A stretch of DNA of 33,540 bases from the NCBI GenBank assembly GCA_021203465.1, contig JAJQBC010000077.1, positions 1 through 33,540 on the forward strand. Direction: 5' to 3'. The stretch comes from Lachnospiraceae bacterium. Lineage in GTDB: Bacteria > Bacillota > Clostridia > Lachnospirales > Lachnospiraceae. Numbering within the stretch: position 1 is the stretch's first letter; each line of letters starts with the position of its first letter. Both the position numbers and the translations under genes were made by a program. Below are positions 3,062 to 7,281 of this stretch, piece by piece. Below the pieces are notes generated by a model that was not told the origin of the DNA, did not search any database, and worked only from the letters and a program-made list of their open reading frames with translations.

Positions 3062-3310
3062 CTATAAAAGTTCTGTCTCCTCCTCCGCCTGAACCGGAAC
3101 TGCGAAGCCCGCGGTGATCTGCTCATAACAGTCCTCGCACAGATCAAAGGAATGATGCTCGCCGTCCTTTTCGGAGAAATAGCCCCAGAGGACCTCCCCG
3201 CGGAACACGCCCTCGCGCGGAACTCCATTCTCCAGCTTCAGTTCCCGTCCGCAACGGTTGCAGACAATTTTATTTAATAGTTTTTTATTTTCATTTGTAT
3301 ATTGACGCAT
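3062..3310 (-). CDS. Small protein with two CxxC zinc-ribbon knuckles
   Basis: An 82-residue soluble protein that I cannot assign to a named function. It has CNRCGRE near residue 17 and CEDCYEQI near residue 59, spaced like the two knuckles of a zinc ribbon. There are no membrane segments, and the tail is acidic. I start at ATG 3310, directly behind a strong AGGAGG; the frame is open for another 20 codons upstream but without a ribosome site. It is the first gene of the run ending in rnz-tsaD-ispD, with a candidate promoter at 3416-3443. Its position suggests a role near RNA metabolism, but that is only inference. Confidence 0.8.
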   Translation of the reverse strand: MRQYTNENKKLLNKIVCNRCGRELKLENGVPREGVFRGEVLWGYFSEKDGEHHSFDLCEDCYEQITAGFAVPVQAEEETELL

Positions 3311-3415
3311 TGATTCTCCTCCTGTTCGCAGATCCAAAGTCCTGATACAACAATAAGCAGTTAAAAACATATTTGCAAAAAACTCAATTTGTTCATGCGT
3401 TGTACCGGCATCATC

Positions 3416-3443
3416 AGTATAATATATCAGAATTCTGTTGCAA
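3416..3443 (-). promoter_or_regulatory. Candidate promoter for the zinc-ribbon/rnz/tsaD/ispD unit
   Basis: Minus strand: TTGCAA (3438-3443), a 16-base spacer, TATACT (3416-3421). It lies in the 152-base gap between rimI and the zinc-ribbon gene, about 100 bases before the ATG. The rest of this gap is A+T-rich, with a second, weaker TTGAGT-17-TAACTG match nearer the gene and no evident reading frame. Confidence 0.5.
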
Positions 3444-3462
3444 ACAGGGAATCAATGGTCGG

Positions 3463-3897
3463 TCAGTCAGTCCGCAGCCAGAGAATGGCCGCATCCTCCC
3501 GCGGCTTCTCATAAAACTCCTTCCGCAGGCCCTCGCGCGTGAAGCCAAGCTTCTCGTAGACGTGCAGCGCCTCACAGTTGCTCACACGCACCTCCAGCGT
3601 GAAGGCCCGTATTCCCAGCGCCCTGCCCCTCCTGAGGAGTTCCGCCACGATCGCCGTGCCGATTCCGCGTCCGCGGTCGCCCTCCGCCACCGCAATGTCG
3701 AGGAGATCCGCCTCGTCGCCGACTCTCAGCAGACCGCCGTAGCCGACGATCGTGCCCTGCTCCTCGCAGACCAGGAAGAGATAGTCCACTTTTCCAAGGC
3801 TTTCCCGCAGACTCTGTTCCGACCAGGGCGTAGTGAAGGTGTTTTGCTCAAGCTCCGCCACTTCGGAGACGTCCGCCTCCGTCATCGGGCGGATCAT
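3463..3897 (-). CDS. rimI: Ribosomal protein S18-alanine N-acetyltransferase
   Basis: A GNAT-fold acetyltransferase of 144 residues. The acetyl-CoA loop GDRGRGIGTAIVAELL lies near residue 95, followed by FTLEVRVSNCEALHVYEKLGF, characteristic of RimI, which acetylates the N-terminal alanine of ribosomal protein S18. Its start overlaps the tsaB stop by four bases (ATGA). The tsaB-rimI pairing is common in Firmicutes. Substrate specificity is inferred from family and context. No clear terminator is visible after its stop. Confidence 0.92.
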   Translation of the reverse strand: MIRPMTEADVSEVAELEQNTFTTPWSEQSLRESLGKVDYLFLVCEEQGTIVGYGGLLRVGDEADLLDIAVAEGDRGRGIGTAIVAELLRRGRALGIRAFTLEVRVSNCEALHVYEKLGFTREGLRKEFYEKPREDAAILWLRTD

Positions 3898-4640
3898 GTC
3901 GCCTGCTCCCCGGCCTTCATTTTCTCTGCCCGCACGCGCTCCGCCTGCGCCATGCGCAGGTATTCCGGCCGGTGCTCGTCGGCGCTTTGCAGCTTTCCTT
4001 CCTTTATATATTCCAGTGCAAGCGCGCCGACCGCCCCTGCCCTCTGCCGGTTCAGATGTGCGGGCGCGAAGCGGACGACCCGACCCACGAGCATCTCTTC
4101 AAGCGTCTTCCGATGCAGCGGTACCGCGTCGCCGAGAAAAATCACGTCCCGCTCCCGCGCGCGGAGCTTTTCCGCAATCTCCGCGACATCCACCGCCATC
4201 TGCGGCTCGAGCACCGCAAGGCGGCTGCCCTGAAATTCGTAGATCCCTGTGTAAACTTGATTTCTCCTAGCGTCCATCAGTGGACAGATCAGATCGCCCG
4301 CGCCAAAGAGATTGTAGGCCAGCGCGTCTACCGTCGGCACCGCGACCAGCGGTTTCTCGAGAGCCAATCCCAGCCCCTTCGCTGTCGCCGAGCCGATCCG
4401 CAGCCCCGTGAAGGAGCCGGGCCCCGCGGCCACCGCGATCGCGTCGATCTCATGCAGATCAAGCTCGATCATGCGCGCGATCTCGTCCAGCATCGGCAGC
4501 AGCGTCTGCGAATGCGTCTTTTTGTAATTCACCGTGTATTCCGCGAGCAGCGTGCTGCCGGACTCGTCACCCTCCGCAACCGCCACGCTCGCCACAAGGC
4601 CGGAACTGTCCAGCGCCAGCACTTTGCAATATTCACTCAT
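3894..4640 (-). CDS. tsaB: tRNA threonylcarbamoyladenosine biosynthesis protein TsaB
   Basis: TsaB is the inactive ASKHA paralogue that scaffolds TsaD during t6A37 synthesis on tRNA. Diagnostic segments are LALDSSGLVASVAV, the KKTHSQTLLPMLDEI motif, VAAGPGSFTGLRIG and LMDARRNQVYTGIY. It is 248 residues, slightly longer than the usual ~230. The ATG at 4640 follows GGAGGATGCAGGAGC. The promoter in the repeat at 4681-4730 lies immediately upstream. In many Firmicutes tsaE precedes tsaB; here that place is taken by the repeat-flanked AAA/nuclease gene. Confidence 0.96.
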   Translation of the reverse strand: MSEYCKVLALDSSGLVASVAVAEGDESGSTLLAEYTVNYKKTHSQTLLPMLDEIARMIELDLHEIDAIAVAAGPGSFTGLRIGSATAKGLGLALEKPLVAVPTVDALAYNLFGAGDLICPLMDARRNQVYTGIYEFQGSRLAVLEPQMAVDVAEIAEKLRARERDVIFLGDAVPLHRKTLEEMLVGRVVRFAPAHLNRQRAGAVGALALEYIKEGKLQSADEHRPEYLRMAQAERVRAEKMKAGEQAT

Positions 4641-4680: not shown

Positions 4681-4730
4681 TAGAGTATAGATGAAATTGA
4701 TGCTTTAATCAAGAATTATCCGCATGATTC
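4681..4730. repeat. Direct repeat R1 beside the AAA/nuclease cassette
   Basis: This 50-bp stretch aligns with 6389-6440 in the same orientation. Roughly four fifths of positions are identical by my hand alignment, with one 2-base gap. Shared blocks are TAGAGTATAGA, ATCAAGAA, TATCCG and CATGATTC. The two copies bracket the broken AAA/nuclease gene and its terminator. The repeated part extends beyond the promoter core, which suggests common descent rather than chance promoter likeness. Confidence 0.75.
4684..4712 (-). promoter_or_regulatory. tsaB-rimI promoter, inside repeat R1
   Basis: Minus strand: TTGATT (4707-4712), a 17-base spacer, TATACT (4684-4689). Transcription would start near 4677, leaving a leader of about 37 bases before tsaB. 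The same promoter layout occurs at the equivalent place in repeat R2. Confidence 0.75.
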
Positions 4731-4744
4731 GGTGTGTGACCACA

Positions 4745-4777
4745 GAAAAAGAAATGACAGCCCGACGTCAGGCTGTC
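4745..4777 (-). terminator. Rho-independent terminator of the AAA/nuclease gene
   Basis: Minus-strand stem GACAGCC/GGCTGTC (4771-4777 with 4756-4762), an eight-base loop, then the T-rich tail ATTTCTTTTTC. The stop codon (4770-4768) lies in the loop, so the hairpin begins inside the last codons. It separates the cassette from the tsaB promoter. Confidence 0.75.
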
Positions 4778-6342
4778 TCGATCCTGCAAGTATGTTTCTT
4801 CGTCCCAGAGTCATAATTGATGCCGACCAGAATCAAATTTCCCAAATAGTCCTTCAGCGCACCTGTATACTGCTTCTCTTTGATCTGCCGAATCGCGGCG
4901 TCAGCTGTTTTATCGTATTTCAGTTCAACCAGCAGCGCGGGCTTATCGGAATCTCTGTGCGGGACAAACGCAAGATCTGCAAAGCCCTTCCCTGATGGCA
5001 GTTCACGAATGATCGTATAATCATTACGTGCGGTAAAGTAAGCCAGCGTTATCACGCAACTCAGCGCGTTCTCGTTATTGTATTGCAATACAGAAGTGTT
5101 CTCAATATGAATCCGGTCGACAGCCTGCTCCATGGCCTCCGCTTTCCCCTCCAGCGTAGCATTCAGAAGATATTCGGATTCTCTGAGCGCGTCGCTCACT
5201 TCCCGCCAGCCGGTATCCTGAACAGCGAGCCGAAAAGCATCCGCGACCTCCAGATTGGGAATATAAACCTCCCTCTGCTTCTGGTCATAAGCCAGATAGC
5301 CCAGATGAATGAGAAGCGTCAGAACGTTATCCCTGTTTTGCAGGCTGGTAATGTCGTTCTGAAAACTCAGCGTATCTATCTTTATCCGCTGCCCTCCAAG
5401 CATCGCTATGACGGCGTCCTTCAGGCCATCCAGATTCATGCTGATATAGCCCTTCAGCGACTCGTAGGTCTCGGACTTCGTCCAGTAATTTCCAAACTCC
5501 TCATTTTTCACCGCGTTCATGACGGAATTGGGGCTGTAAACATGCTGCACCTTATGGAAAGAATATCCGTCATACCAGGTCTGCATACTCTCGAAATCAA
5601 GCTGATGCTCTTCACAAAGGGCAATCACCTCCGCCTCCGTAAAGCCAACATACTGTGCAAGCTTCAAAGGCTGCACCATCGTATATTCCCTGAAATCAGT
5701 CAGGGCAGATTCCGTACCGTACTTCTTGATCGGCAGAATACCTGTCATATACGCGCCCGCAATCGTAATATCCGTAGCCGGTCCGCCTTTAAACAGTCCC
5801 CGAAGCAACTGGATGTATTCCTTCTGCAAAGCCTCGTCGTTCTTCGCCTCGCGGAAGAGCGCGTCCCACTCATCTATGATAACAAAAAAACGATGTCCCG
5901 TTTTCTGGCAGACCTAAAACATGGCATTCGCCAGAATACTTTCGTCAGCCCTGACATTTTCCGAATATGCCTCCCGCAGTTCCTGAATGACCTCTGTCTG
6001 AATATCAGGAACAATCCGCCTGGCATCCGTTGCAATAGAAAGAAACCTGGTAATATCCAGATAGATAACGTCAAACTGATTCAGAAACTTTCCGAAAGAC
6101 GCCGTTTTTCCGATATTTAATCCCGCAAACAATTCTCTGGAATCACAGCTCCGGTCATAATAGGCGCACAGCATTCTCGCCGCAAAGGATTTTCCAAAAC
6201 GCCGCGGACGACTGACACAGAGTAAACGATCCATAGTATCAAGAGAGCTGTTGACAAAGTCAATCATCCCCGTTTTGTCTACATATGCCCCATTCACAAT
6301 CTGCCGAAAACCCATATTGCCGGGATTTAAGTACATGCCCAT
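4768..6342 (-). pseudogene. AAA-ATPase-like / PD-(D/E)XK nuclease gene with one in-frame amber stop
   Basis: The family pairs an N-terminal AAA-ATPase-like domain with a C-terminal PD-(D/E)XK nuclease domain; members are often multicopy and their role is poorly known. The reading frame spans 524 codons. The first part holds YVDKTGMIDFVN and the Walker A segment SRPRRFGKS. Codon 143 is TAG (5916-5914). Translation resumes in exactly the same frame with the Walker B segment FFVIIDEWDALFRE and ends in the nuclease signature GFADLAF then LLVELKYDK. Both domains are otherwise intact, so this is a single-base nonsense change, a sequencing error, or a readthrough site. No good restart is seen: the next possible start is a TTG at 5829 without a ribosome site. 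ATG 6342 follows AGGGGGC. By eye it is more A+T-rich than its neighbours. Confidence 0.85.
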
Positions 6343-6388
6343 AATCCGAATGCCCCCTGAACAAAAAATGCTGATTTCTCCTGTTACG

Positions 6389-6440
6389 TAGAGTATAGAG
6401 GAAATCCGCGTTTTTATCAAGAAATATCCGCGCATGATTC
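6389..6440. repeat. Direct repeat R2 beside the AAA/nuclease cassette
   Basis: Partner of the repeat at 4681-4730, same orientation, 52 bp. It lies between the AAA/nuclease start and the divergent deacetylase gene. The distance between equivalent points of the two copies is about 1.71 kb, which would be the length of one inserted or duplicated unit. Confidence 0.75.
6392..6420 (-). promoter_or_regulatory. Promoter of the AAA/nuclease gene, inside repeat R2
   Basis: Minus strand: TTGATA (6415-6420), a 17-base spacer, TATACT (6392-6397). The expected start point near 6385 gives a leader of about 43 bases before ATG 6342. It is the counterpart of the tsaB promoter in R1. Confidence 0.75.
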
Positions 6441-6489: not shown

Positions 6490-7281
6490 ATGAAAATTTC
6501 TGCAAAGCTTCCCCAGAGAAAATTCCCCGGCGCAAGACTCATCGTCCCGGCTCTCTGCGTCCTGATCGCCGCAGCAGGCGCATTTGTCATCTACGGTCAG
6601 GTCAGCCCAGTCTTCAGCGAGGTACAGAGCCGCAAGCTCCCGATCTACTGCGTCAGCACGGAGAAAGCGCAGGTCGCACTGAGCTTTGACGCGGCGTGGG
6701 GCAACGAGGACACCTCCACCCTTCTCTCCATCCTCGATGAATACGACGTGAAGGCTACCTTTTTCATGACCGGCGGCTGGGTCGAATCCTACCCGGACGA
6801 TGTGAAGGCCATCGCCGCCGCGGGACACGATCTCGGCAACCACAGCGAGAACCATAAGCAGATGTCAACCTTAAGCGTCAGCGAATGCAAGGAAGAAATT
6901 CAGAGTGTCCACGATAAGGTAAAAGAGCTGACCGGAATTGACATGACGCTGTTCCGCCCGCCCTACGGAGATTATAACGATACGCTGATTGAAGCCGCGA
7001 ACGGACTCGGATATCACGCGATTCAGTGGGACATTGACAGCCTGGACTGGAAAGATTACGGCGCCGACGCAATTGTATCGCGTGTTCTGGACAACGAGCA
7101 TCTCGGGAACGGCTCGATTGTCCTCATGCATAACGGAGCGACCTATATGAAGGATGCCCTGCCGCGGGTCATCGAGGGACTACGGGAAAAGGGCTATGAG
7201 CTCGTTCTCATCTCAGAACTGATCTATACGGAAGATTACGAGATGGACCACGAGGGGCGGCAGTATGTGACCGGCAGCTGA
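6490..7281 (+). CDS. Membrane-anchored polysaccharide deacetylase, PdaB-like
   Basis: A carbohydrate esterase family 4 (NodB-fold) protein of 263 residues that probably removes acetyl groups from peptidoglycan outside the membrane. Residues ~16-40 form one membrane anchor. Motifs follow in order: VALSFDAAWGNED (motif 1), HDLGNHSENH (motif 2), FRPPYGDYN (motif 3), DIDSLDWKD (motif 4) and IVLMHNGA (motif 5). In motif 1 the usual second Asp of TFDDG is Ala, as I recall for clostridial sporulation-type PdaB relatives. ATG 6490 follows GGAG by five bases. It is the only convincing plus-strand gene, divergent from the AAA/nuclease cassette. A spore-cortex or forespore role is inferred from family likeness; a vegetative wall role is possible. 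Confidence 0.9.
   Translation: MKISAKLPQRKFPGARLIVPALCVLIAAAGAFVIYGQVSPVFSEVQSRKLPIYCVSTEKAQVALSFDAAWGNEDTSTLLSILDEYDVKATFFMTGGWVESYPDDVKAIAAAGHDLGNHSENHKQMSTLSVSECKEEIQSVHDKVKELTGIDMTLFRPPYGDYNDTLIEAANGLGYHAIQWDIDSLDWKDYGADAIVSRVLDNEHLGNGSIVLMHNGATYMKDALPRVIEGLREKGYELVLISELIYTEDYEMDHEGRQYVTGS

Follow-up and report, generated by a model that had tools for sequence, protein, structure and literature searches.

A probable end-cargo AAA-ATPase-like/PD-(D/E)XK gene of a serine-recombinase element that splits a PdaB-like deacetylase gene in Lachnospiraceae

Integration by large serine recombinases follows a small set of rules: the attP site is a dyad, the core measures 2 bp, and the attB site is fixed. 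In spore formers, several sporulation genes are interrupted by intervening elements, and those named in the parts of the literature on which we draw are skin (in sigK), SPbeta (spsM), vfbin (spoVFB), gin (gerE), and yin (yabG) (PMC5595907, PMC10747680). A second relevant system is the DUF1703 family, whose members combine PF09820 with PF08011 and which is presented, in sections of a study of Cardinium, as expanded and recombining, multicopy, and of undetermined role (PMC6387759).

Here, we analyzed a stretch of 33,540 nt from a Lachnospiraceae bacterium (the window) that holds an AAA-ATPase_like/PDDEXK_9 gene between tsaB and a gene for a PdaB-like polysaccharide deacetylase, and compared it with the genomes of its genus. 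There are 17 of these, all draft or metagenome assemblies; G000 is the window's own, and five others are close to it (tsaB 87-94% identical in protein). The AAA gene is probably the end cargo of a serine-recombinase element lodged in the PdaB-like gene, with the window as its partly erased remnant. As far as the intervening elements are described in the cited portions of PMC5595907 and PMC10747680, this element resembles them in its large serine recombinase, its position inside a gene of a spore former, and its attL and attR sites that are halves of a dyad; as in those elements, excision would restore the target gene. Unlike the skin/gin/yin-type elements of those accounts, it has a PdaB-like deacetylase as its target, it carries an AAA/PDDEXK gene with its own promoter between recombinase and attL, and only this cargo is left in the window. 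With the DUF1703 proteins of Cardinium, in the sections of PMC6387759 that bear on them, the AAA genes share both domains, multicopy occurrence, and signs of transfer and of exchange among paralogues. They differ in that the vehicle of one group is visible here, as the att end of a serine-recombinase element, and in that a single promoter is retained while the coding sequence changes type. The recombinase domains, dyad attP, 2-bp core, and fixed attB also agree with integrative elements of this enzyme class (catalogued, for example, in PMC10083194), but, unlike catalogued serine-recombinase elements, this recombinase is less than 60% identical in all 734 phage records that gave a match. Among the matches listed in a literature search of titles and abstract openings, no element inside a pdaB-like gene was found.

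The features of the locus are collected in Table 1. The original prediction, made from the window alone, held that two imperfect direct repeats flank one gene plus its terminator, that each carries a promoter at the identical offset, one serving tsaB and the other the AAA gene, and that their likeness goes beyond the promoter core. This description proved accurate. Copies A and B are 81% identical over 43 nt, ungapped, and a wider alignment (4681-4730 versus 6389-6440) gives 80.8% over 52 columns, so that the repeats span 43-52 bp; on the minus strand each has promoter-like boxes at the same offset (4712-4684 and 6420-6392), tsaB and the AAA gene each own one copy of this common promoter type, hereafter P, and the likeness reaches upstream of -35. 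The two repeats are not due to chance, because the extended pattern TTGATN18TATACTCTA, at up to one mismatch, occurs at these two sites alone in the 3.24-Mb assembly (control, 0). A search for the 50-bp repeat beside the other AAA genes of this genome, which the prediction had proposed, found none that carries it; the genome has eight PF09820 matches, the window gene being one of them. Terminator-like hairpins are not enriched in the stretch (four found versus 3.5 expected in shuffles).

Table 1. Features of the window that bear on the element and its remnant
Feature	Position	Strand	Evidence or remark
tsaB, presumed from gene context (TsaD/TsaB family)	3894..4640	-	PF00814, E 5e-36
Promoter repeat copy A, upstream of tsaB (TTGATT-17-TATACT)	4681..4723	-	repeat alignment, promoter boxes, assembly-wide uniqueness
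Deletion scar near 4730	4720..4747	.	comparison with G001 and G008
Scar, left part: CCGCATGATTC, pdaB-upstream sequence just upstream of promoter A	4720-4730
Scar, right part: GGTGTGTGACCACAG, degenerate right arm of the element att site, then the conserved terminator	4731-4745
Intrinsic-terminator-like hairpin of AAA gene	4756..4777	-	conserved beside attL in relatives
AAA-ATPase_like + PDDEXK_9 gene (type II), probable element end cargo	4768..6342	-	PF09820 + PF08011 matches
In-frame TAG breaking AAA gene	5914-5916	-	frame 6342-4768
Promoter repeat copy B, AAA gene promoter (TTGATA-17-TATACT)	6389..6431	-	alignment, cross-genome match
PdaB-like polysaccharide deacetylase gene, whole in window	6490..7281	+	PF01522
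Putative empty attachment site attB: GACGCGGCG-TG-GGGCAACGA, core TG 6697-6698, codon 70	6688..6707	+	versus relatives' attL/attR

The prediction further took the repeats for the edges of an insertion, or for a target duplication, and expected an empty site upstream of tsaB in relatives. The region looks different in G001, G008, and G014: codons 1-72 of pdaB follow the tsaB promoter, and then come the terminator and 3' end of the AAA gene. Because pdaB(1-72) abuts the AAA 3' end while the deacetylase residues from 70 onward are encoded elsewhere (7.0 kb off on the same contig in G014, on another contig in G001, G008, and G012), the insertion point is inside pdaB and not at the tsaB promoter, and the edges are att sites within the pdaB-like gene. 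Across the genus, pdaB is split at codon 70-72 in 6/17 genomes (G001, G004, G006, G008, G012, G014), whole or nearly so in eight (G000, G003, G005, G007, G011, G013, G015, G016, the window gene thus being whole), and lacks a close match in three (G002, G009, G010). In all six close genomes, G000 included, an AAA gene adjoins either the N-terminal part of the deacetylase or the whole gene. By eye, gltS-like, hydrolase-like, and RpiR-like genes stand between the deacetylase stub and tsaB in G011 (L041:2435-5732), and hydrolase-like and RpiR-like genes stand upstream of tsaB in G012.

The junctions have a regular form. Those on the left read GCGTGGGGGAATGYRTGATTGCGG or close to it, with slight differences in G012 and G006, and those on the right read CCGCAATGTGACATTCCCC-TGGGG in G001, G006, G012, and G014; G008 and G004 have variant forms. 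We interpret these junctions as putative attL and attR sites, with TG as the core, made by a large serine recombinase; the attP rebuilt from them, CCGCAATGTGACATTCCCC-TG-GGGGAATGYGTGATTGCGG, is a dyad around TG with 16/19 positions matching. At up to one mismatch the attR pattern occurs in 6/17 genomes, once in each and always at pdaB (control, 0), and at up to two mismatches the attL pattern occurs in seven, six times at pdaB N-fragments and once on the attR of G004. Neither pattern matches in G000, and of these sites the window holds only attB and the degenerate arm of attL. Among other genera, the attR pattern was met in 2/149 genomes, with one mismatch each, at loci that show no deacetylase match where fetched.

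The recombinase, with Resolvase, Recombinase, and zinc-ribbon domains, is encoded by the element and is 75-100% identical among G014, G001, G008, and G006. It is absent from the window; a relative of it in G000 is only 50% identical and sits on a different contig, and no close recombinase was found in G012 or G004 (best match 38-39%). The element ends form an inverted repeat, and one might therefore suppose a transposon with 19-bp terminal inverted repeats, moved by a DDE-type transposase and not by a serine recombinase. We hold this to be very unlikely, since the site is identical in all six genomes, a serine recombinase gene lies less than 2 kb from attL in G014, G001, and G006, and the ends and junctions match an attP x attB exchange at TG. 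A large serine recombinase would, on our preferred reading, insert the element at the fixed attB in codon 70 of the PdaB-like gene.

Within this element, the AAA gene has a constant place. In five of the six split genomes it sits immediately inward of the pdaB(1-72) junction, and the order recombinase, promoter, AAA gene, attL recurs in G014, G001, and G006; from this we conclude that the AAA gene is the end cargo and that copy B came along with it. The general layout would be attR, other genes, recombinase, P, AAA gene, terminator, attL. All of attR, recombinase, AAA gene, and attL are on a single contig in G014 and G006. In G014 the element measures 7.0 kb and runs from attR through genes for a radical-SAM protein, an HTH protein, and a YARHG protein to the recombinase, the AAA gene, and attL. 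The element of G006, a distant member (recombinase 75%), is about 23 kb long, with attR at 28.9 kb and attL at 52.1 kb on the contig, and ends with the recombinase, a promoter, an AAA gene of another type, attL, and deacetylase residues 21-72; some of its open reading frames (L168:1015-19901) resemble, by eye, ParA/ParB, a Y-family polymerase, YqaJ, and RecT. In G001, recombinase, AAA gene, and attL share one contig and attR is on another. G008 keeps an intact recombinase gene on its attR contig; its attL contig has a recombinase remnant ahead of the AAA promoter. G004 has an attR, with no AAA gene shown at an attL; the arm of this attR is CCGCAATCACACATTCCCC, which corresponds to the mirror arm in the other elements (L122:2553; G004:C34:34048-34071). 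An AAA-like gene lies at a distance of about 0.8 kb, and this element is possibly oriented differently or more symmetric. The claim of the original prediction that the AAA gene arrived on a mobile element is thus upheld by the relatives' att sites and by the gene order at attL. A phage or viral origin was rejected: the top-ranked phage record is 38.5% identical to the recombinase, viral contigs reach 27% at best (two loci, in a pattern-limited scan), and no exact attP was found in the viral contigs.

How, then, did two copies of P come to flank the gene? The original answer was that the tsaB promoter had been copied when a sequence was inserted or duplicated there, so that the incoming AAA gene could be expressed without silencing tsaB. 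Two direct promoter repeats do flank the gene, but the pdaB fragment described above separates the tsaB promoter from the AAA 3' end in three relatives, and the promoters are related in the wrong way. Window copy B agrees with copies B of four close species, G001, G008, G011, and G014, at 38-42 of 42 positions, as against 34-36 for copies A (34 for its own tsaB partner) and 26-30 for the copies of G006 and G007. In three relatives copy B is joined to the end of a recombinase gene: the AAA promoter directly follows this end, away from tsaB, in G001, G014, and G008 (a remnant in the last), and copy B overlaps the final recombinase codons in G001 and G014. Further, outgroup tsaB is preceded by a tsaE-like gene and not by P. 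The pdaB fragment and the promoter relationships led us to reject promoter copying at tsaB, to which we give almost no credence. The copy-B matches and the overlap with the recombinase gene indicate instead that the AAA gene brought copy B with it as its own promoter, and copy B with its leader (window 6362-6430) is kept in G001, G008, G011, and G014. The prediction had named as its own refutation a two-repeat layout with the gene fixed in all relatives, and this is largely what is seen: an AAA gene is at the deacetylase in all six close genomes, and four of the six keep both copies.

Copy A is the derived partner. A tsaE-like gene (called by eye from GDLGVGKT and a shared C-terminal end) stands directly ahead of tsaB in 11/12 outgroup loci, the twelfth (L057) starting too close to tsaB to tell, and copy A is on this ground a derived feature of the clade, in which tsaB would have gained a P-type promoter after leaving the tsaE-tsaB arrangement. 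Loss of an AAA gene that stood between promoter and tsaB is one possible route. The extended core of P, at up to three mismatches, has 12 matches in the 17 genomes (control, 0), eight at AAA genes (G000, G001, G008, G011, G014, two in G006, one in G007) and four at tsaB (G000 and, as counterparts of copy A, G001, G008, and G014); tsaB of G011 and G012 is without it. A general likeness of vegetative promoters was rejected, since all 12 matches fall at AAA genes or tsaB and none was found at up to two mismatches in 298 sampled genomes of other genera. Nor is P the promoter of every AAA gene. Only 7/33 distinct AAA starts carry it at up to three mismatches, and the other 26 score at least nine, as random windows do (2,364 windows, of which 36 had 0-1 mismatch, real sites by their score, and the others at least seven); this survey excluded starts without a Walker-like motif (e.g., L008) and duplicates (e.g., G014), and the G006 element copy was not included. 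An operator-like inverted repeat (TGCTGATTTC...GAAATCAGCA, by eye; L045:4618-4697) surrounds the -10 of the AAA promoter in G014 and G001 and is weaker in the window.

The genes with P belong to three AAA types only about 23-38% identical to each other (the window gene entering this comparison through its C-terminal part, with seven out-of-frame pairs left aside). This common promoter, together with the inverted repeat around -10 in the G014 copy, could mean that a common regulator constrains both promoters, P being the operator-promoter of the AAA group and tsaB having been recruited to it. Such a regulator is doubtful, if far from negligible, because 26/33 distinct AAA starts are without P and because the likeness extends upstream of -35, where the sequence codes for the recombinase end in G001 and G014. 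It and the end-cargo account can both hold.

The window looks like a remnant in its sequence: the recombinase is absent, pdaB is whole, and the 72-codon stub appears deleted near 4730, where G001 and G008 hold about 265 and 335 nt, pdaB codons 1-72 included. G011 is an informative intermediate toward this state. It has, in order, a perfect attL, the AAA gene, promoter B, and a whole deacetylase gene, and the 72-codon stub persists beyond attL, 97.6% identical in DNA to the N part of the whole gene; G012, the sister of G011, keeps a split pdaB, whereas pdaB is whole in G011 and G000, where its restoration may have been one event or more. The window lineage would once have held the element, and crossing over of the element's P with a related P upstream of an element-free pdaB would have removed the recombinase and kept the AAA gene. 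Such a crossover would leave pdaB whole and would be the simplest path from the state of G014; later, the stub would have been deleted, a paralogue would have replaced the AAA coding sequence, and the stop codon would have arisen. A P x P crossover predicts a copy B with mixed sides, as is seen in G000 and G011, where the pdaB side (GAATCATGCGC) is like the tsaB-side copy and the AAA side like the element copy. Against it, only about 35-42 bp of imperfect homology would have been available. This short homology, together with G007, in which an LCP gene, an AAA gene, a single P, and a whole pdaB follow each other with no att match, means that another route may exist, and G007 may represent the same outcome reached differently. 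The arrangement in G007 also raises the alternative that the AAA-P unit is an old chromosomal neighbor of pdaB and was captured by the element later. This is unlikely: the AAA genes of G007 and of the G006 element are 84% identical, a perfect attL lies beside the AAA gene of G011, and in G015 an LCP-like gene (by eye) is next to pdaB with no AAA gene between. Returning to the end-cargo account, we note that the two flanks of the element need not share one history. For the deacetylase C part of G014 versus G001 (L116:2767-3351, L118:121-702) dS is 0.488 as against 0.099 for tsaB, which indicates that the attR flank has a different history from the tsaB side.

In the window, the interior of the AAA gene shares only about 37% of its protein sequence with the type I gene of the relatives, as against 82-94% identity in DNA at both ends. 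Relatives have PF09820 and PF08011 in one protein; the window has both domains, split by the in-frame TAG, which presumably falls between the Walker A and Walker B regions (labels by eye) and was absent from the original prediction. Among the six close genomes, three have a disrupted gene, with this TAG in G000 and a large internal deletion in G008 and G014; the frame is open in G001 and G011, and in G012 the 5' end of the gene, close to a contig edge, is replaced or unresolved. The deletions in G008 (L043:1391-2338) and G014 (L045:4685-5632) seem identical, and tsaB does not place these two genomes as sisters. Pieces of AAA genes lie in opposite orientations on contig C39 of the window's genome (L195:31-855, 3177-4189), at about 68-70% DNA identity to the window gene. 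Recent conversion of the window gene from another copy was rejected, in a comparison of four loci (three of the window's genome, one of G006), because the sole match, on C39, is only about 70% identical in DNA. No known defense system was matched: a set of five sequences, made up of the recombinase, two AAA proteins, and both open stretches of the window gene, gave 0 PADLOC-DB families. The type I gene is less than 60% identical in all 55 plasmid records with a match.

The deacetylase is nearest to PdaB (best NCBIfam model TIGR02764, 218.7 bits) but under the model cut-off of 237.4; it is likely a sporulation gene, although a sporulation role is for this reason not proven. The spoIVA gene is present in 16/17 genomes, G011 being the one without it. 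Over pdaB codons 75-263, dN/dS is 0.028-0.075 in all 10 pairs among G000, G011, G014, G001, and G012 (G008 was left out), and 0.028-0.047 where both genes are split (G014-G001, G014-G012, G001-G012); ten pairs of tsaB give 0.054-0.096. Purifying selection on the C part is therefore strong. This is consistent with an excisable intervening element of a sporulation gene without proving one, and a pdaB that is cut and yet constrained suggests, by analogy, reassembly as in skin, gin, and yin. Over codons 1-69, dN/dS is 0.077-0.313 in 21 pairs, with 0.122 for the whole genes of G000 and G011 and 0.113-0.313 for fragments of different genomes; constraint on the N fragments may thus have been relaxed, an argument against reuse. 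The selection seen in the C part could also be older than the insertions. Excision in the six genomes with the element would, judging mainly from selection on the C part, rebuild pdaB.

A broader reading can be offered tentatively and as a whole, and we regard it as improbable in its entirety, though worth stating: the pdaB-splitting element would be excised to rebuild the gene, and the AAA/PDDEXK unit would be an exchangeable module under a fixed promoter that outlives its element. This module would recombine out at the promoter repeat, become domesticated beside a healed pdaB, and lend its promoter to the essential tsaB, and the AAA/nuclease itself may drive these promoter-anchored exchanges. 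Apart from this speculation, the comparison sets right an interpretation of the promoter repeats that, though plausible, was misleading, and provides a concrete vehicle, the att end of a serine-recombinase element, for one group of the widespread, multicopy AAA/PD-(D/E)XK family. It also makes the PdaB-like gene, possibly still in use, a candidate addition to the few sporulation genes that are interrupted by excisable elements.
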